Source: Myxococcales bacterium
GTDB taxonomy: Bacteria > Myxococcota > Myxococcia > Myxococcales > Myxococcaceae
Direction: 5' to 3'
Assembly (NCBI GenBank): GCA_020846875.1
Contig: JADLDB010000113.1
Span: forward strand, 1-64,000
Length of the DNA stretch: 64,000 nt
Below the pieces are notes generated by a model, which ran no database searches, was not told the DNA's origin, and worked only from the letters and a program-made list of their open reading frames with translations. Positions 18,137 to 29,280 of the stretch are shown in pieces (within the stretch, counting starts at the first letter, position 1; every line of letters starts with the position of its first letter). The translations under genes and the position numbers were made by a program.

Positions 18137-21100
18137 TCACAGCGTGTCCTCCGGCTCGTCATCCGGGGTCGGCTTCTTCGGCCCAGGTCCGCCGTCTGGT
18201 TTCTTCGGCGCGGGCGCTGGGGTGGGCGCGGGCGCCGCGGCCGTCTTGGGGGCCGGGGCGGGCTGCTCGGGCCCGGTGAGATCGAGCTCCGGCTCGGTGG
18301 CCTTCGTATCGCGAGCGCTCACCTCGCGCGCCTTCACCTGCATCTCCGCGGCCTTCTCCGCGGTCACCGTGGGCACGGCCTGAATGCTGGTGAGGACTCC
18401 CCCGCCGATCGCCGGCGCCTGCCTGCCGTCGGTCTTCAGCTCGAAGGTGTCCTCGTGCATCGGCGGGAACTGGATGGGCGCGTACTTGGTGCGCAGCATG
18501 TTGAGCGCCGCCTGGGTGCAGGGGTTGAACACGTCCAGCTCCTGGCTCTTCTGCACCACCGCGGCGAAGGCCTCCGTCGCCTTGGCCTTGGGCTGCTCGG
18601 CCTGCTGCTCGAACTGGGGCCGCAGCTCGATCAACAGCTCCTCCGGCAGCCCCTTGGGCACCGGGAAGTTGATCAACTGCTCGGCGAACTGATCGTACGC
18701 CATGCCAATCTTGTGCAAGGCGCAGATCGCCGGGTCGGCCGACTTGAGCGCCACCGTGCGGGTGTAGGCCTTCTGCACGTCGCCCAGCGCCTCGCCCTTC
18801 ACCTTGATCGAGCCCTTGAGCTCCCCGATGTTCTGCACCTTCGACCAGCGCAGCTTGATGCCGGCGTACTTCTTCCAGTCGTCCTCGTTCTGGAGGAATG
18901 ACGCGCGGGCCACCGGATCCAGCGCCTGGATCTCGAGGTTGTCGCGCTGCTTCTTGGACAGCTGCTCGTAGTACTTCCAGATCCGCTCGTAGACGCCCCG
19001 CGCCGCCTTCTGGTTCTTCAGCTTCTCCTCGTAGATGGTGGCGATGCGCCCTTCAGAGGTGAGGATCTTGTTCGGATCCTTGGTGTTCTTCTTCTCGTAG
19101 GCCTCGAGGCCGTCCAGGACCTTCTTCCAGGCGCCCATCTTCTCGTAGAGATCGAGGATCGACTTCTCCACGGCCTCCGCGTCCTTCGACTTGGGCCACA
19201 GCTCCAGGTACCGCTCGCGGTTCTTGAGAGCCACCTTGTACTGCCCCAGCCCCTCGCGGAAGACGCCGGCGTTGAAGAGCGCGTCCTGCGCCTTCTGCTC
19301 TTCCCACACCTGCTCCGGGCCGTCCGCCTTGTCGTCGCCCTTGCCCTTCTTGCCCTTCTTGGGAGCGGCCTTCTTGCCCCCGCCCGTCTTGCTCTTCTCG
19401 TAGTTGGCCGCGTAGGCCTCGTAGTAGTCGCTGGCCGGCTCGAAGTCGGCGATCGCCTCGTAACCTTCCGCCAGCGCGAACATCGTCTGCGGCACGTACT
19501 GGGACTTCGGGTGAGAGGTGATCAGCTTCTTGCGGACCTCGATGGCGCGGTCGAGCATCTTCGCGTTGTAGAAGTCGATCGCCGCGTTGAAGAGCGCCTT
19601 GTCGGCGAACTCCGACTTGGGCCACTCGGCGACGAACTGCATGTACTGCTCACCGGCCTTGGCGTACTCCTTCTTCGCCTCGAGCTGGTTGATCAGCTTG
19701 AAGCTGGACTGCTCGATCAGCTTGGCCACCGCCACGCGGAAGTCGCCCTGCGCCAGCTTCTCCTCGGCGTAGAACTTCCGGGCCCACTCGTTCACCTTGG
19801 CCCAGTCACCGAGCAGGTTGTACGAGTCGAGCACCAGGTTGGCCGCCACCTCGCCCGCCTTGCTCCCGTCCTCGAACTTGTACTCCGGGTGCTTGAGCGC
19901 GATGTCCGCGAAACGCCCGACCGCTTCGTCCAGGTGGTTGTAGTCGTAATAGATCTTCGCGGCCTTGTACTGGATCTCCACCAGCTTCTCGCCCTTCTCG
20001 ATGTACTTGAGGTAGCGCTCGCAGGCGTCCAGCAGGCCCCGCTTCAACGGGTGGATGTCCAGCTTGGCGTTGGGATCGGTGATCGCCGGCTGCTTGATCT
20101 CGCCCCGGGTGATGGCGCCCTTCACCACCTCGTCCCAGGCGAGGATCGAGTTGTAGGCGGCGTTGACCATGTACTTGCCGGGCTTCGCGTCGCCGCCCTT
20201 CTTGATCAGCTCGATGTCCTGGTTGAAGACCTTGGTGTACTCCTCGGAGGACCGGTCGTACTTGTTGAGGTTGTCGTTCAAGAGCTCCGCCCAGAAGAAG
20301 CGCAGCGCGTAGGCCTTGGGGTTCTGCGGGAAGAGCGTCAGGTAGTCGGCGTAGACGGCGTTGGCGAACTCGAAGGTGGAGTCGTCGCGCGTCTTCTTGG
20401 CCTCGTTGTGCCAGTTGACCGCCAGGTTGGAGATGGTGCGCTCGGACAGTTCCCGCGCCTCGTCCAGCGACTTCTTGTCCTTGTCCTCGAGCTTCGGGTT
20501 CCCCTTGAGCACGTCGTCCATGATCTTCACCAGGCGGCGCACCTGCTGGACGGTCATCTGCTTGTTCCCGGCGCGCATCACGCAGTCGACGATGCGGGAC
20601 TGGAAGCCGGGCGCCTCGGGGGACAGCGGGCGCTCCTTGATCAACATGTCGTAGGCGAGCGCCGCTTCCTTGTCCTTGCCGTCCTCGTAGAAGAGGCCGG
20701 CGAGCTGCTTCATCATCGTCCGCAGGTCGTCGGGCGTGTCGGCCAGCTTGGAGAAGCGATCCTTGCCGTCGCTGGGCCCGCCGCCGGTGCGGGAGAAGGC
20801 GCGCACGTAGTCGTTGCGGGCTTCCTTGGCGAGGCCGGAGCGGTTGGACTTGCCGCCCTTCTTCGGCCCTTCCACCTCCTCGGCGCCGGCCAGCTTCGCG
20901 TAGAGGACGACGGCCTTGAACTGGTCCATCGCCTTGTCGAAGTCGTTCATGTTGAAGTAGCACCAACCCTGCTTGTACATCGCGTAGCCGTACACGGCGT
21001 TGTCGGTGAACTTGGACGCGTTCTTGTAGTTGTCGAGCGCCTTCTCCAGCATCTCGCGCTTCGACTTGGAGTTGTTGAAGTAGTACTCCCCCACGGCCAG

Positions 21101-21760
21101 GTACGCGTCGGGCAGGTACCTCGACTTCTGGTACTTGGTGATCAGCCGGTTGTAGGCGACCAGCCCGCGCTTCTCGTCGTTCATCTCCATCAGGTTGAGG
21201 CCGAGGAAGTAGAGGACCTCGTCGGTGCGCTCGAAGTCTTTGTAGTTCTGGACGATCGTCGAGTACTCGGTGATCGCCTTCTGCGCGTACTCCTTGGACT
21301 GGCTGAGCAGCTCGCTCTTCTCCGACTCGGCGCGCTCGACGGCGGCCTTGTCGTCGGCGTTCATCGCGCGGATCTTGTCGTCGTCTTTGCGGTTGGCCTC
21401 GAAGAAGAAGTACTTCGACTCTTCCCAGTAGAGCTCGCCGAGGCGGAAGTGCAGGCCCGGCTTCTCCTTCTTGTCCTGGGACAGCTCGATGATCTTCTGA
21501 AGGTCGCCGATCTGCTCGCGGCGCTTGCTGGCCACCTGCAGCTCGATGCCCGTGCGGAACTGATCGTACTTCATCGCCGGGGCTTCCTCGCGCTTCTCCT
21601 TCTTGCGCGTGATGTCGCCGGCCAACCCCTTCTCAGGCGCGAGGTTGGTTTCCTTCTTCTTCAGCTCGGTGTCCTTCGCGGTCTTCTTTTCCGTCTTGTC
21701 CGTCTGGGCGCCGGCCGCCACAGACAACGCGATGACGAGGGTGGTGATCAGTCGATGCAT
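18137..21760 (-). CDS. gltD: Large periplasmic TPR protein, GltD (AgmU)-like
   Basis: 1,207 residues, close to the roughly 1,200 of M. xanthus GltD/AgmU. ATG 21760 begins MHRLITTLVIALSVAAGAQ, a signal peptide without a lipobox, so the product is probably periplasmic. The body is a long array of TPR-like helix pairs (for example PDAYLAVGEYYFNNSKSK and AVYGYAMYKQGWCYFN) with a Lys-rich linker (KKAAPKKGKKGKG), and the last 90 residues are Pro/Ala-rich. Family knowledge: AgmU/GltD links inner- and outer-membrane parts of the gliding complex and decorates a helical track. A promoter-like pair lies about 110 bases upstream. The larger in-frame start at 21907 is rejected because it would bury the signal peptide. 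Confidence 0.75.
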   Translation of the reverse strand: MHRLITTLVIALSVAAGAQTDKTEKKTAKDTELKKKETNLAPEKGLAGDITRKKEKREEAPAMKYDQFRTGIELQVASKRREQIGDLQKIIELSQDKKEKPGLHFRLGELYWEESKYFFFEANRKDDDKIRAMNADDKAAVERAESEKSELLSQSKEYAQKAITEYSTIVQNYKDFERTDEVLYFLGLNLMEMNDEKRGLVAYNRLITKYQKSRYLPDAYLAVGEYYFNNSKSKREMLEKALDNYKNASKFTDNAVYGYAMYKQGWCYFNMNDFDKAMDQFKAVVLYAKLAGAEEVEGPKKGGKSNRSGLAKEARNDYVRAFSRTGGGPSDGKDRFSKLADTPDDLRTMMKQLAGLFYEDGKDKEAALAYDMLIKERPLSPEAPGFQSRIVDCVMRAGNKQMTVQQVRRLVKIMDDVLKGNPKLEDKDKKSLDEARELSERTISNLAVNWHNEAKKTRDDSTFEFANAVYADYLTLFPQNPKAYALRFFWAELLNDNLNKYDRSSEEYTKVFNQDIELIKKGGDAKPGKYMVNAAYNSILAWDEVVKGAITRGEIKQPAITDPNAKLDIHPLKRGLLDACERYLKYIEKGEKLVEIQYKAAKIYYDYNHLDEAVGRFADIALKHPEYKFEDGSKAGEVAANLVLDSYNLLGDWAKVNEWARKFYAEEKLAQGDFRVAVAKLIEQSSFKLINQLEAKKEYAKAGEQYMQFVAEWPKSEFADKALFNAAIDFYNAKMLDRAIEVRKKLITSHPKSQYVPQTMFALAEGYEAIADFEPASDYYEAYAANYEKSKTGGGKKAAPKKGKKGKGDDKADGPEQVWEEQKAQDALFNAGVFREGLGQYKVALKNRERYLELWPKSKDAEAVEKSILDLYEKMGAWKKVLDGLEAYEKKNTKDPNKILTSEGRIATIYEEKLKNQKAARGVYERIWKYYEQLSKKQRDNLEIQALDPVARASFLQNEDDWKKYAGIKLRWSKVQNIGELKGSIKVKGEALGDVQKAYTRTVALKSADPAICALHKIGMAYDQFAEQLINFPVPKGLPEELLIELRPQFEQQAEQPKAKATEAFAAVVQKSQELDVFNPCTQAALNMLRTKYAPIQFPPMHEDTFELKTDGRQAPAIGGGVLTSIQAVPTVTAEKAAEMQVKAREVSARDTKATEPELDLTGPEQPAPAPKTAAAPAPTPAPAPKKPDGGPGPKKPTPDDEPEDTL

Positions 21761-21911: not shown

Positions 21912-22742
21912 TCAACGACCAGGTCCGAGGCCCAGCCGCTCCATGAGGATCCGCGCCCTGGTGGCGGCCTCCGGGGACTCTGACACCTCCACCACCAGCT
22001 CTACCGAGGGATCGCGCACCACCAGCGACTGCAACAGCCACGGCTCCACCTCGCCCGGGACGATCACCCTGGTGCCGCTGCCGCAGGGGAAGACGTCGGC
22101 GCTCATGGCCAGCAGCGTGGCCACGTGCACCTCGAGGGCGGGCAGCGCGCGGCTTCTTCCCGGGCAGCGGGTGGCGAGCAGCTCTTCCGGCGCAGGCACC
22201 AGCACCTTCTGGCCGGGGAGCGCGAGGAACAGGCCCCACCCCAGCAGATCCACCGGGCCCGAGGGGCGCCAGCGCACCACCGACGGCCGCGCCTTCGCGA
22301 TCCGCTCCGCCGTGGCGGCGTTGAGGGGGCCGTCCACCTCCACGGCGATCCGGCGCACGCCGGGGACGCGCCCCAAGAGCCCCTCGAGATCCTTCGGCGT
22401 CGCCCACACCCCGGCCTTCGGGATCCGCGCCAGCACCAGGGCGTCCGGCTTCGACAGCGGCGCGCGCAGCCGCACCCAGGCCTCGTCGAAGCGGGCCACG
22501 CGCTCCACGGTGGACTCCTTCAGGGTGTTGGAGCGGGTGTCCAGCCACAGCGTCACCTGGGGCCTGGCCAGGGCGCGCAGGGAGTCGGCCGGCAGGCCCT
22601 CCCCCGCGTAGACGTGGACCTTCAGGGTGCCGGCGACGAGGGCCCCGGGGCTGCCTTTGGGCAGCGGGCGTTGATCCTGCGCGTGCGCCGCGAAGGCCAG
22701 GGCCAGCGCGCAGAGCAGCGCTACTGGTTCTTCTCGAGCCAC
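21912..22742 (-). CDS. Secreted protein of unknown function, last gene of the FecR cassette
   Basis: About 276 residues if GTG 22742 is the start; the protein then begins with a hydrophobic leader ending ALALAFAAHAQ. This start overlaps the fecR-domain gene by 22 bases; no ATG is available near the leader. The mature part contains short alternating beta/alpha segments (VHVYAGEGLPADSLRAL, IAVEVDGPLNAATAERI) and I do not recognise the family. Two Cys residues occur in the mature region (ATRCPG and FPCGSG) and could form a disulfide. Placed at the end of a run of coupled envelope genes, it is probably periplasmic. Confidence 0.65.
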   Translation of the reverse strand: MAREEPVALLCALALAFAAHAQDQRPLPKGSPGALVAGTLKVHVYAGEGLPADSLRALARPQVTLWLDTRSNTLKESTVERVARFDEAWVRLRAPLSKPDALVLARIPKAGVWATPKDLEGLLGRVPGVRRIAVEVDGPLNAATAERIAKARPSVVRWRPSGPVDLLGWGLFLALPGQKVLVPAPEELLATRCPGRSRALPALEVHVATLLAMSADVFPCGSGTRVIVPGEVEPWLLQSLVVRDPSVELVVEVSESPEAATRARILMERLGLGPGR

Positions 22743-23452
22743 TGGGAGAAGGCGTCGGCCTTGGCCTTCGCGTCGATCTCCGCCTGCTCCCACAAGTCCA
22801 CGCCCACGGCGATCTGCTGGTTCTTCTGCAGCTCGACGAAGCGCGCCTCCCACTCGTCGGCGGTGATCTCCTTCGGGCCGGGCACCTCCACCCGCTGGCC
22901 CTTGGGCGCGGCGGGCGTGGCCGCCTTGATCGTCTTGGCGACCGCCTTGCTGGGCCGCACCGCCACCACGCCTTCCACCACCCGCACCACCGAGGCCTTG
23001 CGCCCCTGCCCTTTGCCCTTGGCGGCCTTCACCAGGGTGTCGGCGTCGATGCGGAAGATGGTGCCGCGCACGCCGGCCACCGCGCGCTCGGTGGTGACCT
23101 CGAACTTCCCGCCGCCCAGCGCCTTCTTCACCTTGGTCCACAGGCTGCCGGCCTTGAGGAAGGCAGAGAAGCCCTTGCGCTCCTGGCCCTCGAACTCGGC
23201 CTCGGTGATCTGCAGCTTCGACCTCTCGGCCAGGGCGATCACGCTGCCGTCGTTGAGCTCGAGCTTCAGGTTGCCCTTGCTCACGTCGATGGTGTCACCC
23301 AGCTCGACCTCCGTGCCCACGGCCAGGGCCACCGCCGCGCCGCCGTCCTTCGGGGTGCGGGTGCCGGCGCCTTCCAATACGGCGATCTTCCCCACCGCCG
23401 CGAGCGCGGAGCCGGCGAGGAGCAGGGTCGACAACGCGAGGATCCTTCTCAT
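22721..23452 (-). CDS. FecR-domain periplasmic protein
   Basis: 243 residues from ATG 23452 with GGAGG nine bases upstream. MRRILALSTLLLAGSALAA is a signal peptide. Residues about 25-140 match the FecR domain: a start like GKIAVLEGAGTRTP, VGTEVELGDTIDV, then LNDGSVIALAERSKLQI and TERAVAGVRGTIFRI, the core beta pattern (V-G-x-x-x-x-G-D, S-x-x-x-L, A-V-R-G-T). The tail is basic and Pro-rich, then helical. Unlike the true FecR anti-sigma factors there is no cytoplasmic domain, so this is a free-standing periplasmic FecR protein. Both ends overlap neighbours (ATGA with the PEGA-like lipoprotein upstream). Confidence 0.8.
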   Translation of the reverse strand: MRRILALSTLLLAGSALAAVGKIAVLEGAGTRTPKDGGAAVALAVGTEVELGDTIDVSKGNLKLELNDGSVIALAERSKLQITEAEFEGQERKGFSAFLKAGSLWTKVKKALGGGKFEVTTERAVAGVRGTIFRIDADTLVKAAKGKGQGRKASVVRVVEGVVAVRPSKAVAKTIKAATPAAPKGQRVEVPGPKEITADEWEARFVELQKNQQIAVGVDLWEQAEIDAKAKADAFSQWLEKNQ

Positions 23453-23793
23453 GGGGTGCTGCCTCCATTCGCAATCAGCGCCACGTCCATCACCACCCGG
23501 GTGCCGTCCGCCTCCATCCACGACTCCCACGGCCGAAAGCCCCGCTTCTTCACCTCGACCCGCCGCGGCCCCGTCCCCAACCCCAGCCCCTTCGGCTCGC
23601 CGTTGAAGTCCTCACAGAGCCCCTGCGGCACGCCGTCCAACCACACCTCCGCGTCCGCCTGGCTGCAGTGCAGCACCAATTCACTGCGCTGGGCGGGGCG
23701 CTCCTTCGGCAGCTCGAAGGCCGGGACCAGGTCGGCGGCGGACTGCGGCGACGCACACCCGGTGAGGAGGAGCGCCCAGGCGGCGCGCGTCAT
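23449..23793 (-). CDS. Small lipoprotein with PEGA-like domain
   Basis: 114 residues. MTRAAWALLLTGCASPQS contains the lipobox LLTGC (Cys13). The mature part has ADAEVWLDGVPQG, an extended segment and RRVEVKKRGFRPWES, which resembles a PEGA domain (a short beta domain with G-x-V-x-x-x-G and G-Y/F-x-x-W-type turns, found in surface lipoproteins). Cys43 and Cys59 may be disulfide-linked. It overlaps the FlgT-N-like gene stop (23790-23793) and the FecR gene start (23449-23452) by four bases each, so it is translationally coupled on both sides. Confidence 0.7.
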   Translation of the reverse strand: MTRAAWALLLTGCASPQSAADLVPAFELPKERPAQRSELVLHCSQADAEVWLDGVPQGLCEDFNGEPKGLGLGTGPRRVEVKKRGFRPWESWMEADGTRVVMDVALIANGGSTP

Positions 23794-24953
23794 TTCCCGA
23801 CCTGCACCTCGACCTTGTTGTTGGTCAGCGTGGTCACCGTCAGCTTCTTCTTCTTCCAGGTGGACGACTCGACGGCCAGCGCCAGCTCCTGCGACGTCCC
23901 CAGGAAGGTGATCACGAAGCGGGCGGTGCCCTTCTCCAGCTTGGGCGCGGACGCGGCACGCACGCCCTTCATCGCCTCCACGCTCTTCTTGAAGTCGTTG
24001 GCCGCCGAGAAGCCGTCCAGCCCGGACACCACCAGGTTGAGCTCCGCGCCGTTGGAGGACTGGTTGCGCAGGAACTCCAGCACCTGCTTGCGCAGGGGGC
24101 CGATGATCTCGTCCTTGCGGCTGGTGATCAGGTTGAGCGCCGTCCGGTCGTAGGACACCAGCTGCTTGCCGGGATCTTTGAGCGGGTTCAGCTTGCCCAC
24201 CACTTTGCCGATGTCGCGGCCGGTGTCGGTGGCGAAGACGGTGAGGTCGAACTCTCCCGTCACCGGGAAGACGTTCTCTGTCTTCACGTTGGGATCGAAG
24301 TCCTGGTGCCGCATGGTGGCGTTTCCGTAGAGCACGAAGTCCACCTTGGAGAGGTCGCCGATCTCCTTCGGATCGATCGTCCCACCCTGGATCACCCCGC
24401 CCTGGACCTTCAGCTTGCTGTTCGCCCAGTTGGGGTTGATCACGTCCCAGCCGTCCGCCTTGAGCTGCTGGCCGAGCACCGTCTCGATGGTGTTGGAGTT
24501 GATCACCGACTTCTCGCTCAGGGGGATGGTCTGCTCGACGATCACCACGGTGATCGACGGGCGGCCCATGCGCTTGACCAGGGCGCGCGCGGCCTCGATG
24601 TCCTTGTCCAGGTTGTCGGTGATCACCTCGGCCTTCACGGTGACGGTGACGACGCCCTTGTCCACCTTCTTGCTCGCGACCGTGAAGCTCTTCACGTAGC
24701 CCGAGGTGTTGGAGAAGACCTGGTCGCGAACCAGTTGGTTGTTCACCACCACCGTGTCGGCGTCGATCTTCACGCCGGCGGCCTGCTCCACCGCCGCGCG
24801 CAGGGCATTCTGCTGGGCCTCGGCGAAGGCCTTGGCTTCGTCCTTGTTGACGATCGCCGCCTCACCGGTGCCCTCCTTGGTCAGGACGGTGGCCTGGGCC
24901 AGCGCCAGCGAAGACAGGGACAGAGACAGCAGGGTCAGTCGAATGGCGGTCAT
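23790..24953 (-). CDS. FlgT N-terminal-domain-like secreted protein
   Basis: 387 residues with signal peptide MTAIRLTLLSLSLSSLALAQ. Residues about 25-115 (from EGTGEAAIVNKDEAKAFAEA through VTVTVKAEV) match the N-terminal domain of flagellar assembly protein FlgT, a domain also found in non-flagellar envelope proteins. The middle (VDFVLYGNATM and EFDLTVFATDTG) looks like the CsgG/FlgT-like middle fold, and the C-terminal 120 residues resemble a domain repeated in such proteins. No flagellar gene is nearby and Myxococcota of this type usually lack flagella, so another envelope role is inferred. It follows the LPP20-like gene by 14 bases. Confidence 0.7.
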   Translation of the reverse strand: MTAIRLTLLSLSLSSLALAQATVLTKEGTGEAAIVNKDEAKAFAEAQQNALRAAVEQAAGVKIDADTVVVNNQLVRDQVFSNTSGYVKSFTVASKKVDKGVVTVTVKAEVITDNLDKDIEAARALVKRMGRPSITVVIVEQTIPLSEKSVINSNTIETVLGQQLKADGWDVINPNWANSKLKVQGGVIQGGTIDPKEIGDLSKVDFVLYGNATMRHQDFDPNVKTENVFPVTGEFDLTVFATDTGRDIGKVVGKLNPLKDPGKQLVSYDRTALNLITSRKDEIIGPLRKQVLEFLRNQSSNGAELNLVVSGLDGFSAANDFKKSVEAMKGVRAASAPKLEKGTARFVITFLGTSQELALAVESSTWKKKKLTVTTLTNNKVEVQVGK

Positions 24954-24967
24954 GGGCGCGGTGCCTT

Positions 24968-25759
24968 TCAGTTGAGGACGATGACGACCTTGCCGTCAGC
25001 GAGGAAGCCGGTGTTGAGGGAAGCGAGCTTCTTCGCGTCCTCGGGGGCGAGCTGCAGATCAGCGCCCTGAGCCTTCGCCGCCTTGATCACCAGCGGCTTG
25101 TCGCCCGCCTTGGGGGACTTCTGCGCGTCGTCGAGGCTGGCCACGTAGGCCGCCACGCCGCTCGTCTTGCGGGCGTCGGCCGACAGCGAGTCGATGGAGT
25201 AGACGGGCTTGCCGTCACCGTCCAGCACGCGGGGCATCAGCGCCGGCGTCAGCTTGAGGCCGCGGGCGTCGATTACCAGCCCGGTGGCCGCCTTCTCCCC
25301 TTCGGGCTTGCCCACCGCCAGCACCTGGGTGGCGTCGGGATCGATGACGTCGGCGAGCATGGAGACCGGCACCTCCACCTCGAGCTCCACGCCGTTGTCG
25401 GAGAAGTACCGCTTGTTGACGATCTTGTAGCCCTTGACCAGGCCCTCCACGCGGGCGCGCACCTCGTCCTTCGCCATCAGGTCGCCCATCTTGCGGGTGC
25501 CGTCGATGGAGGTGCCCTTCACCTGGCCGAGCAGGTTGCGCAGGGCGTCCAGCTTCGCGGCCATCTCGGCGCCGAGCCGCGCCTGGGCCGCGTTCTGCGC
25601 CTTCATGTCAGGAGCGCCCTGGCCCGTGGCGCGGATCACCTGCCCCGCCCAGTTGACCCCGGGGACCGCCTTCGTTGCTTCGGCGGGCTTCGCTTCCTTG
25701 CCCTGAGTCCACGCCGCCAGCGGGACTGCCAGGACACACGCCATCACGAGTCGTTTCAC
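24968..25759 (-). CDS. LPP20-like secreted protein
   Basis: 263 residues from GTG 25759. This start is preferred to the ATG at 25777 because GGGGGAGG lies nine bases before the GTG (and inside the longer version), and the leader (KRLVMACVLAVPLAAWTQG) then begins with a basic residue. Residues about 35-130 (VIRATGQGAPD, AQARLGAEMAAKLDALRNLLGQ, VELEVEVPVSML) match the LPP20/FlgP-type domain. There is no lipobox Cys at the expected place, so the mature form may be periplasmic rather than lipidated. It is the first gene of a five-gene coupled cassette; a promoter-like pair lies 43 bases upstream. Confidence 0.7.
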   Translation of the reverse strand: MKRLVMACVLAVPLAAWTQGKEAKPAEATKAVPGVNWAGQVIRATGQGAPDMKAQNAAQARLGAEMAAKLDALRNLLGQVKGTSIDGTRKMGDLMAKDEVRARVEGLVKGYKIVNKRYFSDNGVELEVEVPVSMLADVIDPDATQVLAVGKPEGEKAATGLVIDARGLKLTPALMPRVLDGDGKPVYSIDSLSADARKTSGVAAYVASLDDAQKSPKAGDKPLVIKAAKAQGADLQLAPEDAKKLASLNTGFLADGKVVIVLN

Positions 25760-25884: not shown

Positions 25885-26220
25885 TCACTGCTCCGACGGG
25901 TGCCGCGCTACGTACTGCTCGATCAAGCGGCGGTGGCGTTCCGTCAGCAGCGTGAAACGCACACCGGATCCCTCCTCGCGCTCAGAGAGATCAGCCCATT
26001 CCCGCACCACCTCGCCCTCGGCGTAGATCACCTCTTCGGAGCCGGGTAGTTGGAACTGCAGGCCCACCCGCTTGCCCGCCATCTCCGGCTCGATCAGGTG
26101 GGACAGGCCCACACCTTCCCGGCTGATGTCTGCCGTGCGCGCCATGTAGGGGACGCCGGCGACGTACTTGTTCATGTAGACGTCGAGGGGGACGCGGGTC
26201 TGCTTGCGCTTGTCGCTCAT
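25885..26220 (-). CDS. PilZ-domain protein
   Basis: 111 residues from ATG 26220 (AAGGG about 10 bases upstream); a longer in-frame start at 26271 has no ribosome site. The sequence carries an RxxxR-like motif near the N-terminus (KRKQTRVPLDVYM), then TADISREGVGLS, matching the D/N-x-S-x-x-G part of the c-di-GMP-binding PilZ signature, and a closing strand RFTLLTERHRRLIEQYV. PilZ domains bind c-di-GMP and often control motility or secretion. It stands alone with its own predicted promoter and a 5' hairpin; the neighbouring motility and envelope genes make a local role plausible but unproven. Confidence 0.8.
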   Translation of the reverse strand: MSDKRKQTRVPLDVYMNKYVAGVPYMARTADISREGVGLSHLIEPEMAGKRVGLQFQLPGSEEVIYAEGEVVREWADLSEREEGSGVRFTLLTERHRRLIEQYVARHPSEQ

Positions 26221-26314: not shown

Positions 26315-27802
26315 TCAGCGGAATTGATCGACGTCGCTGATCAGCGTGACGGGGCCGAGGGCGCGCAGGGCGGGCTCGAGCGACGCAGGTCCGACGACGA
26401 CGATCTGCAGGCCGGTCGAGAAGCGGCGGACGGCCTGGTTCGCCTCCTCGAGCGTCACCGCCGCAGTGCGATCGCGGAAGCGCTCGAGGTAGTCGTCGGG
26501 GTAGCCGAAGTGATCGAAGAGGGCGCGCTCGAAGCCGATCCGCGCGGCGGTGTCGAACCGGAAGGCGAAGGCGTTGAGCGACATGTCCACTGCGGTGCTG
26601 AGCTCCGCCAGGGTGAAGGGCTCGCCCGCCCCCGCGCCTTCGAGGATCCGCAGGCCGACCTTCAGCGCCTCCACCGCCTGATCAGGCCGGGTGTCGAAGC
26701 CGGCGAGGAAGAGGCCGGTGGTGGGGCCGGGGCTCACCTGCGAGAAGGCGGAGTAGGCCAGCCCACGCTCGTCGCGGATTTCCCGGTACAGGCGCCCCAC
26801 CCCGAAGCTGCCCAGCGCCGTGTTGGCCAGCCGCAGCCGGTACTCGTCGGAGGACTTCCGGGGAAAGCCCGGTCCGCCGAGGCGGATCTTCACCTGCGCC
26901 ACCTGCCGGGGGACGAGGATCACCCGGCGCGTCTGCGCCTGCCCCTGGCCATAGATGCGCGCGGCCAGCGGCCCGCCCTTCCAGGGCTTCACGTGCAGCC
27001 CGAGCAGCGTCTTCACCGCCGCGGGATCGAAGTCCCCGGTGATCACCAGCCGGGTGCCCACCGGCGTGAAGTGGTTCGCGTGGAAGCGCTTCACGTCGCC
27101 AGGCGTCAGCGCGGTGAGGTGGCTCTCCAGCGGCTCGCGCGCCAGCGGGCTGGCCGGCCCGAAGAAGGCCTTGTTGAGCGCCCGGGAGGCGACCGCGTCG
27201 GGGCGATCCTCCCGGCGGCGGACGGACTCGAGGGCCCGGGCGCGCACGACTTCGAAGCGCTTCACGTCGAAGCGCGGCCGCTGCAGCACGTCTGCGAAGA
27301 TCGGGAACAGCTTGGTCAGATCCTGGGATCGCACCGAGAGGGAGACCGTCGAGTACTCGTCGCTCGCCCCGCTCGTCAGATCCGCCGCGTGGTACTCGAG
27401 CAGCTCGTCCAGCGCCTCCGCCCCCAGCGGTCCCGCGCCCCCCTCGGCGAGCAGGCTCATCGTCACCGACGCCAGCCCCAGCTTGTCCGGCGGATCCTCC
27501 ACCGTCCCCGCGGGGAGCAGCGCGCGCACCAGCACCAGCGGCGTGGTGTGATCCTCCACCAGGTAGACCGTCACCCCGTTGCCCAGCTCGAAGCGCTCCG
27601 GCGCGCGGATGGTCAGCTCCAGCGGGGCGGATTTCAGCGTCGTGGGATCGACCGCGAGCCGCTCCGGCAGAGGGAAGGTCGCCAGCGGAGGCTTCGTCGG
27701 CGCCGACTCGAGGCCAGGCTGCGGACGGGTGAGGACTTCGGGCTCGGGGATGGGTGCGGTCGCACACGCGGCGAGGAGCAGGACGACGATGGCCCGGATC
27801 AT
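26315..27802 (-). CDS. M16-family lipoprotein lacking the zinc motif (partner subunit)
   Basis: 495 residues from ATG 27802 with GGAGAGG seven bases upstream. MIRAIVVLLLAACATA has a lipobox (LAAC, Cys13). The body follows the M16 (pitrilysin/processing-peptidase) fold in two halves, but the region that should hold HxxEH reads LGLASVTMSLLAEGG, so no zinc site exists. The C-terminal half keeps the R/Y motif region (GVGRLYREIRDERGLAYSAF) that completes the partner's active site. Family knowledge: M16B enzymes work as heterodimers of a catalytic and an R/Y subunit. The catalytic gene directly precedes it and overlaps by ATGA, which supports a 1:1 complex. Confidence 0.85.
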   Translation of the reverse strand: MIRAIVVLLLAACATAPIPEPEVLTRPQPGLESAPTKPPLATFPLPERLAVDPTTLKSAPLELTIRAPERFELGNGVTVYLVEDHTTPLVLVRALLPAGTVEDPPDKLGLASVTMSLLAEGGAGPLGAEALDELLEYHAADLTSGASDEYSTVSLSVRSQDLTKLFPIFADVLQRPRFDVKRFEVVRARALESVRRREDRPDAVASRALNKAFFGPASPLAREPLESHLTALTPGDVKRFHANHFTPVGTRLVITGDFDPAAVKTLLGLHVKPWKGGPLAARIYGQGQAQTRRVILVPRQVAQVKIRLGGPGFPRKSSDEYRLRLANTALGSFGVGRLYREIRDERGLAYSAFSQVSPGPTTGLFLAGFDTRPDQAVEALKVGLRILEGAGAGEPFTLAELSTAVDMSLNAFAFRFDTAARIGFERALFDHFGYPDDYLERFRDRTAAVTLEEANQAVRRFSTGLQIVVVGPASLEPALRALGPVTLISDVDQFR

Positions 27803-29280
27803 CGGGACCTCTCCTCTTGCCGAGCCTCTCCCTTGATGGGGGCCAGGGAGACCTGGACGCTGTTGGTCCGCACGAAGTACCGCGTCGCCGCGTCCTGCAC
27901 CTCCGCCGCGGTGATGGACTCGATCGTCTTCGGCAGCTCCACCACGTAGCGCCAGTCGCCCAGGAGGCTCTCGAAGCGGGACAGGGCGCTGGCCAGGCCC
28001 GCGTTCGTCTCCTGCGCCCGGGCCAGGTTCACCGTCACCCGGTTGCGCACCTTCTCCAGCTCCCTGGCCTCCACCGGCTCGCGCACGAGGCGCGACAGCT
28101 CGTCCCACAGCGCCGCCTCCACCGCGTCCTGCTTCACGCCCTCCAGCGGCACCACCGAGATGATGAAGAGCCCCTCGTAGCGGATCCCCGGCCCGGTGAA
28201 GGTGCCCACCGCCTGCGCCAGGCGATCCCGGTACACCAACCGCTGCGTCAGCCTGCCGGTGTTCCCCTCCCCTAGCAGCACGTCGAACACGTCGAAGATC
28301 GCATCGTCGCGGGAAGGCGGCGGCGGCTTGCGGAAGGCCAGCAGCAGCCGCGGCTTCGCGTCGAAGCTCACGGTGGAGCGCCGGAAGGCGCGCTGCGGGG
28401 GCTCGCTGAAGGAAGGATCGGCCGGCCTGGGCTTATTGGGGAGCAGCCCGAACGTCCGCTCCAACAGCGCCCTCACCTCCTCCACCTTCACGTCGCCCAC
28501 CACGCAGCCCACCGCGTTGGACGCCGTGTAGTGCGCCTCGAAGAAGGCGTGCGCCTGCGCCAGCGACATCGCCTTCAGGTCCCCCGCGTAGCCCACCGTC
28601 GGCCAGCGGTAGGGGCTGGCGACGAAGGCCAGTTGGTTGAGCTCCTCGTACATCACCCCGCCGGGGTTGGTCTCGATGCTGCGCAGGCGCTCCTCCTGCA
28701 CCACCTGGCGCTCGGTGTAGAAGTCGCGCAGCACCGGCGAGGCGAAGCGCTGCGCCTCCACCGTCAGCCACAGCTCGAGCCGGTTCTTCGGCAGGCTGAC
28801 GAAGTAGCTGGTCAGATCCTTGTCGGTGGTGGCGTTGAGGCCCACCGCGCCTGCCGTCTGGTACAGCCGCGCCAGCGCGTTCTCGTCGGTGAGCGCCTGG
28901 TGGGCTTTCGACAAGCGGGCCAGCTCCAGCGCCAGCGCCTTCGCCTCGTCGGTGCCGCCCTTCCCCGCCCGCGTGAGCGCCGCCAGCGCGTCGCCCACCT
29001 GCTGCAGCTCGCCCAGCAGCGGGACCTCCGCCTTCCAGTCCTTCGTGCCCAGCACCGGCGTGCCCTTGAAGGCCATGTGCTCGAAGAGGTGCGCCAGCCC
29101 CGTCTGCCCCGGCGCCTCGTCCGCTCCGCCCACCCGGACGCGCACGTAGCCGGTGAAGACGGGCGCGTCGTGGCGCTCCACCACCAGCCAGGTCATGCCG
29201 TTGGGAAGCGTCACCTCCTGGACGGACGCCTCCAGGCCCGCTGGAGCCGCCGCCAGCACCGCCAACGCGAGGGCGATCAC
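27799..29280 (-). CDS. M16-family zinc peptidase, catalytic subunit
   Basis: 493 residues from GTG 29280, leader MIALALAVLAAAPAG as signal peptide. The inverted zinc motif HxxEH is present as GLAHLFEHMAFKG (H64, E67, H68); the third ligand is expected at the VVQEE segment (E196/E197). The product is probably periplasmic and degrades peptides or processes secreted proteins together with the downstream zinc-less lipoprotein subunit. It overlaps the upstream HExxH peptidase gene by GTGA (29277-29280) and the downstream subunit by ATGA. The alanine-rich segment after HxxEH (about residues 85-135) is a long helical insertion. Confidence 0.88.
   Translation of the reverse strand: MIALALAVLAAAPAGLEASVQEVTLPNGMTWLVVERHDAPVFTGYVRVRVGGADEAPGQTGLAHLFEHMAFKGTPVLGTKDWKAEVPLLGELQQVGDALAALTRAGKGGTDEAKALALELARLSKAHQALTDENALARLYQTAGAVGLNATTDKDLTSYFVSLPKNRLELWLTVEAQRFASPVLRDFYTERQVVQEERLRSIETNPGGVMYEELNQLAFVASPYRWPTVGYAGDLKAMSLAQAHAFFEAHYTASNAVGCVVGDVKVEEVRALLERTFGLLPNKPRPADPSFSEPPQRAFRRSTVSFDAKPRLLLAFRKPPPPSRDDAIFDVFDVLLGEGNTGRLTQRLVYRDRLAQAVGTFTGPGIRYEGLFIISVVPLEGVKQDAVEAALWDELSRLVREPVEARELEKVRNRVTVNLARAQETNAGLASALSRFESLLGDWRYVVELPKTIESITAAEVQDAATRYFVRTNSVQVSLAPIKGEARQEERSR

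Follow-up and report, generated by a model that had tools for sequence, protein, structure and literature searches.

What do relatives of flagellar outer-membrane ring proteins do in an operon that stands apart from the flagellar genes? The question is raised by the window, a 64,000-nucleotide stretch of a Myxococcales genome (contig JADLDB010000113.1, positions 1 to 64,000), in which five consecutive genes encode an LPP20/FlgP-like protein, a FlgT-like protein, a PEGA-domain lipoprotein, a FecR-domain protein and a fifth protein. The first-pass annotation of this DNA had taken the five for a conserved non-flagellar outer-membrane complex. Conserved gene order and the lack of a tie to the flagellum partly bear this out, but the unit comprises three to four genes and the genome itself has a flagellar gene cluster. 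By the features tested, the operon is not a member of the FlgT, FlgP, curli secretion or FecR signalling systems. We consider it reasonably, though not strongly, probable that its products build a non-flagellar ring or scaffold on the inner side of the outer membrane.

A contig scan with an LPP20 alignment gave 80 named loci, ranging from Archangium metagenome-assembled genomes (MAGs), Pyxidicoccus, Corallococcus, Hyalangium and Citreicoccus to MAGs of Desulfobacterales and Syntrophaceae, and profiles detected the core genes in nearly all of them. In loci with sufficient flank, the LPP20-like gene lies upstream of the FlgT-like gene in 27 of 28 cases within the organism's own taxonomic order, 18 of 19 in distant families and 31 of 31 named distant loci, while the FecR-domain gene lies downstream of it in 26/26, 18/19 and 16/16, respectively (the three sets overlap partly, with some contigs in two of them). 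A check of gene order had been proposed when the locus was first annotated, and the order LPP20–FlgT-like–FecR was kept in almost every locus examined, across 22 Myxococcota families and in the Desulfobacterales and Syntrophaceae MAGs. The conserved unit consists of four genes, LPP20/FlgP-like, FlgT-like, PEGA and FecR. The order read around the FlgT-like gene in relatives of this genome is PilZ – LPP20-like – FlgT-like – PEGA – FecR – (CDP-alcohol phosphatidyltransferase) – (AI-2E permease) – fifth gene, followed either by gltD and a gltE-like gene or by a thrS-infC-rpmI-rplT-pheS run (recognised by gene lengths and order). No earlier description was found in the open-access literature, and judged by sequence this is a widely conserved, old and apparently undescribed envelope operon.

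Presence of the FlgT-like gene is coupled to that of the FecR-domain gene. Among 156 Myxococcota genomes, each at least 90% complete, the FlgT-like gene was found in 79 (26 families), FecR orthologues in 80 and LPP20 in 127; both FlgT-like and FecR genes occurred in 77, a single one in 5 and neither in 74. In 35 of the 40 Myxococcaceae loci read, LPP20 and the genes downstream have neither of the two between them, and PilZ, LPP20 and PEGA stay in order. A tree of PilZ and LPP20 shows about seven changes of state for the FlgT-like gene, of which five fall on well supported branches; in about four of the five supported pairs the FecR gene changes too, and it never goes in the opposite direction. 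The fifth gene does not track these losses. One locus (L214, genome G103) has an intact FecR gene beside a short remnant of the FlgT-like gene, an intermediate stage of loss.

Conserved neighbours might share common expression or growth control without forming a complex. The survival of LPP20 and PEGA without the FlgT-like and FecR genes would fit such an explanation, as would the coming and going of the fifth gene and of PilZ. We nevertheless regard it as very improbable in view of an order held across so many families amid changing flanks, the joint disappearance of the FlgT-like and FecR genes, and the homology of two of the proteins to known ring proteins.

The claim that there is no flagellum is true of the window only. 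Elsewhere in this genome (7.06 Mb) a FlgI profile match (2.4e-124) lies inside a large flagellar cluster (contig C94, about 67000-96000; L155, L156), in which flagellin, FliD, FlgK/L, FlgH/A/G/F, FliF, FliG, FlgE and a MotA-like gene were recognised by eye. Because the genome carries this cluster, the argument must rest on co-occurrence and not on the absence of a flagellum. The FlgT-like protein was searched in 60 genomes (this genome and 59 relatives) and matched in 33. FlgI and the FlgT-like protein were both found in 12, the FlgT-like protein only in 21, FlgI only in 6 and neither in 21 (p = 0.27; p = 0.21 when restricted to genomes at least 90% complete). Among the 14 genomes behind distant loci, which are MAGs of unknown completeness, FlgI was found in 8. 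While FlgT occurs with the flagellum, the FlgT-like protein shows no association with FlgI in the 60 genomes, and the presence of the operon is not tied to the flagellum.

The LPP20-like and FlgT-like proteins could still be accessory ring parts (H/T-ring, basal disk) of the bacterium's own flagellum, encoded off the main cluster. The flagellar cluster, the best structural match to flagellar FlgT and the match of the LPP20 profile to FlgP are what this would lead one to expect, yet FlgI is absent from 21 of the 33 operon-bearing genomes and present in 6 of the 27 without the operon gene, the loci read show no recognisable flagellar gene beside the operon, and the FlgT-like protein is without FlgT_C. 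A flagellar accessory role is improbable and was rejected, as co-occurrence with FlgI gives it no support.

Homology links the operon to ring-forming outer-membrane proteins. Against the PDB, the LPP20-like profile matched a periplasmic scaffold lipoprotein of the C. jejuni flagellar motor (9hmf_C, 3e-13), Treponema Tp0624 (5jir, 5e-8, positions 55-259) and the FlgP chain of 8z5n (2e-7); Pfam LPP20 was matched by 10 of 18 relatives. A paper on the Campylobacter motor (PMC12222027) associates ring formation in the SHS2 family with an insert placed after the helix and before the second strand. Alignments of the LPP20-like protein to FlgP chains cross this insert nearly gap-free, and by alignment its SHS2 domain has the insert at the same place. 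The family alignment shows no conserved lipobox cysteine, unlike the lipidated N-terminus of FlgP. In one lineage of the order (L041, L042, L143, L145-L148) LPP20-like and FlgT-like domains lie in one long open frame, which suggests a putative fusion of the two genes (start codons not resolved) and hence contact of both proteins.

For the FlgT-like protein, Pfam FlgT_N was matched by 18 of 19 relatives, and the closest curated family is NCBIfam LipL46 (16 of 19, best 2e-22). A structure model of medium confidence (predicted local distance difference test, pLDDT, 75.5; predicted template modelling score 0.58) retrieved FlgT first in a fold search (3w1e, 4.6e-11), then the LPHT ring (8z5n, 3e-10) and after it GNA1162, CsgG and PelC. 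FlgT_C had no match in any of the 19 relatives, and the model has a different alpha/beta domain at 303-385. At the SHS2 insert site it places, at low confidence, 27 residues (60-86) that include a short hairpin, and the alignment to FlgP passes through this region. The operon probably works like the FlgT and FlgP ring proteins.

Of the five proteins, the PEGA protein alone conserves a lipobox cysteine, which at least 90% of its 21 relatives share; 14 of the 21 match the PEGA domain (best 1e-6). The FecR-domain protein matches LipL45 in all 23 relatives (best 1e-21), with Lsa33 also near, and its family has a near-invariant AVAGVRGTxF motif. NCBIfam cut-offs for LipL46 and LipL45 are not reached despite significant E-values, with window scores of 30 and 46 bits against 400 and 350, and the FlgT-like and FecR-domain proteins are distant relatives of these families, not members. 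The FecR family also matches the NCBIfam model of the LapA-type retention module (20 of 23 relatives, best 2.8e-7) and the solved antifreeze-protein domain 5ix9 (6e-5). The analogy with LapA-type retention modules gives no more than a hint that the FecR-domain protein may act as a plug.

A FecR domain and an adjoining PilZ gene, with its possible link to cyclic di-GMP (c-di-GMP), could instead indicate a sensor or signalling system at the cell surface, with the FecR protein signalling envelope state. The first-pass annotation had raised this idea, and we found no positive evidence for it. A FecR sensor would have a cytoplasmic anti-sigma N-terminus and a FecI-type sigma gene; here FecR is the sole domain found, it follows an N-terminal signal peptide, no anti-sigma region is present, and the sequence is nearest LipL45. 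The annotated neighbourhoods contain no recognisable sigma factor gene (some neighbours not searched), in agreement with the earlier observation that there is none here. A sigma-signalling role of FecR was rejected on these grounds, and we consider a sensor quite improbable.

A fuller version of the operon occurs in Desulfobacterota-type loci (L118, L120, L124-L126, L128-L130) from MAGs of Syntrophaceae, Desulfobacterales and unspecified 'Deltaproteobacteria'. Its order is LPP20 – TPR+SLH – FlgT-like – GNA1162-like – CsgG – PEGA – FecR – (CDP-alcohol phosphatidyltransferase), and both CsgG (2e-6) and GNA1162 (1e-18) were confirmed by profiles against solved structures. The CsgG protein of L118 has a FlgT_C tail (7e-7), and a FlgT_C-like tail is found in some loci of the set. 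Together with the FlgT-like protein, this CsgG protein brings the FlgT-type N, middle and C modules into one non-flagellar operon, in two genes. No curlin or other csg genes were recognised in these CsgG-bearing loci. Two Myxococcota loci (L139, L163) have CsgG-like genes in the operon as well; the window operon and the Myxococcaceae loci read are without a CsgG pore gene. Elsewhere in this genome, proteins of 240-760 amino acids (aa; L157:6077-10449, L157:12867-13586, L158:8057-9787) carry four CsgG-like domains of VLYFENRT type at their N-termini, and two of these domains belong to tandem genes. The proteins are candidates for the pore partner that the operon lacks. Since the fuller operon combines a CsgG-type pore with GNA1162 and TPR-SLH, the operon probably served at first to export or assemble a surface polymer across the outer membrane. 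Our preferred reading is a non-flagellar ring platform, probably derived from a CsgG-type assembly.

In the mechanism we propose, the two SHS2 proteins with a FlgP/FlgT-type insert, LPP20-like and FlgT-like, would oligomerise as rings, and the FlgO/CsgG/PelC-like middle domain of the latter would form a second ring layer. The PEGA lipoprotein would fix the ring to the membrane. Because their genes come and go together, the FecR-domain protein may dock on its FlgT-like partner as a cap or plug. To this the Desulfobacterota-type operon would add the CsgG-type pore, GNA1162 and a TPR-SLH linker. The Myxococcaceae operon, without these three genes, would retain the periplasmic ring and use it together with some other pore or to brace the envelope.

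It is possible, though rather unlikely, that the proteins form a mechanical brace of the outer membrane or a complex for lipid or lipopolysaccharide homeostasis that exports nothing, with FecR and PEGA binding glycan and the neighbourhood reflecting constitutive envelope growth. No CsgG gene is left in the Myxococcaceae operon, neighbours such as the CDP-alcohol phosphatidyltransferase and the thrS-infC-rpmI-rplT-pheS run are widespread, and the TPR-SLH and Tp0624 relatives hint at peptidoglycan contact. The CsgG homologue in the Desulfobacterota-type version speaks against a brace. So does the repeated loss of the FlgT-like and FecR genes in healthy free-living species, which means that these two are not essential for envelope integrity.

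Several points weigh against a ring or scaffold, whose assembly, internal contacts and function are inferred. The insert region is poorly predicted in the FlgT-like model (residues 61-84 with pLDDT below 50), which matches FlgT domain by domain, with a template modelling (TM) score of about 0.3. Many distant families have no PEGA gene, and LPP20 persists without the FlgT-like and FecR genes, so that not all of the proteins are mutually dependent. As to the coupling of those two genes, Fisher's test on the 156 genomes ignores relatedness, and the sign test on the tree gave p = 0.125, with too few supported pairs to reach 0.05.

The outer-membrane disks of flagellar motors are thought to have been recruited from other proteins, and to our knowledge no working non-flagellar donor has been described. 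The Desulfobacterota-type operon holds counterparts or folds of the FlgP, FlgT and FlgO types, namely the LPP20/FlgP-like protein, FlgT_N with a FlgO-like middle domain, and CsgG with FlgT_C. We consider it unlikely, but worth stating, that the operon descends from a non-flagellar outer-membrane assembly that donated FlgO, FlgP and FlgT to the flagellum; the Desulfobacterota-type version would then still be a CsgG-type export platform, and the leptospiral LipL46 and LipL45 would be scattered relics. A widespread operon of FlgP-, FlgT- and FlgO-type modules that is independent of the flagellum makes the question of disk recruitment testable. It also provides a genetic context, in tractable myxobacteria (Corallococcus, Pyxidicoccus), for the LipL46, LipL45 and Tp0624 domain families, so far studied mainly as spirochaete antigens or adhesins.

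Features of the operon and its neighbours in the window, in order of transcription for the five operon genes
Feature	Length (aa)	Position	Strand	Remarks
LPP20/FlgP-like exported protein	263	24968..25759	minus	SHS2 domain with FlgP-type insert and C-terminal domain
FlgT-like, distantly LipL46-like exported protein	387	23790..24953	minus	FlgT_N (SHS2), FlgO/CsgG-like middle, alpha/beta C-terminal domain
PEGA-domain lipoprotein, small	114	23449..23793	minus	Probable outer-membrane anchor
FecR-domain exported protein	243	22721..23452	minus	Nearest LipL45/Lsa33; without anti-sigma region
Fifth exported protein, no assigned function	276	21912..22742	minus	Predicted beta/alpha barrel; loosely linked neighbour
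PilZ-domain protein	111	25885..26220	minus	Pfam PilZ 2e-12; directly upstream of LPP20-like gene
gltD-like gene, TPR	1207	18137..21760	minus	Outside core unit

Within the window, the first-pass description of five coupled genes for exported proteins is accurate in gene number, coordinates, export-like starts (signal-peptide-like N-termini in all five, judged by eye) and the gltD-like gene that follows after 151 bases. A 14-base gap separates the LPP20-like and FlgT-like genes and two 4-base ATGA overlaps come next; the last junction had been misread, as the fifth gene overlaps the FecR gene by 22 bases and not by an ATGA. GTG at 25759 is preferred as the start of the LPP20-like gene because GGGGGAGG lies just 5' of it. 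The promoter-like pair proposed earlier (TTGAAG-18-TAGATT) fell away: it has 8 of 12 consensus positions, a score reached by 12.5% of shuffles, and a consensus scan was blank there. Among the window proteins, the Pfam cut-offs are passed by FlgT_N (1.5e-8) and FecR (2.3e-12) but missed by LPP20 (0.0017) and PEGA (0.087), both of which score better in relatives.

Of the five genes, four are conserved together and the fifth is separable. In many relatives the latter is absent or set apart by the AI-2E permease (sometimes also by the CDP-alcohol phosphatidyltransferase), and a five-gene unit was rejected for this reason. Its protein is modelled as a beta/alpha barrel (pLDDT 86.7); Pfam and NCBIfam searches were blank, and a fold search gave generic TIM barrels only, with low TM scores. 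The PilZ gene precedes the operon in 20 of 28 loci from the organism's own taxonomic order with enough flank and has a conserved position in Myxococcaceae, which may permit control of the operon by c-di-GMP. Directly upstream of it lie two tandem M16-peptidase-like genes (window 26315-29280; recognised by eye, with an HxxEH-type motif in one), a pair retained there in many relatives. The gltD gene follows the operon in one Myxococcaceae clade only, here with a gltE-like gene as well, and a functional link to gliding was rejected since the adjacency is limited to that clade. M. xanthus GltD is an exported TPR protein of 1191 aa (PMC3169522). The flagellar cluster described above coexists with gltD in this Myxococcaceae genome, and FlgI is found in 10 other genomes of the family, nearly the ones with gltD after the operon.

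How does the operon compare with known systems? With the Myxococcus Glt gliding complex it shares the gltD and gltE-like genes 3' of it here, whereas most copies of the operon adjoin thrS or other genes. The kinship of the FlgT-like and FecR-domain proteins to LipL46 and LipL45/Lsa33 of Leptospira is distant; these are lipoproteins regarded as surface antigens or adhesins, and in L. interrogans their genes are scattered (LIC_11885, LIC_11643, LIC_11834; PMC5553009). The fold of CsgG (curli), PelC and GNA1162 is shared with the middle domain of the FlgT-like protein, and true homologues of CsgG and GNA1162 belong to the Desulfobacterota-type operon; curli differ in their curlin and csg genes, and in the CsgG gene, which is missing from the Myxococcaceae operon. 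In Treponema pallidum Tp0624, the N-terminal half aligns with 205 positions of the LPP20-like protein; Tp0624 then continues into an OmpA-like domain, and its PDB entry is titled OOP family OmpA-OmpF porin. The flagellar rings of Vibrio and Campylobacter (FlgT H-ring, FlgP basal disk, FlgO) differ in that the operon lies outside flagellar loci, occurs in many genomes without FlgI, combines a FlgT-like protein without FlgT_C and a non-lipidated LPP20-like protein, and has PEGA and FecR proteins in addition. With these rings it shares the SHS2 FlgT_N and FlgP-like domains with their ring-associated insert, the FlgO-like middle domain, and the periplasmic face of the outer membrane as the expected location of its proteins.

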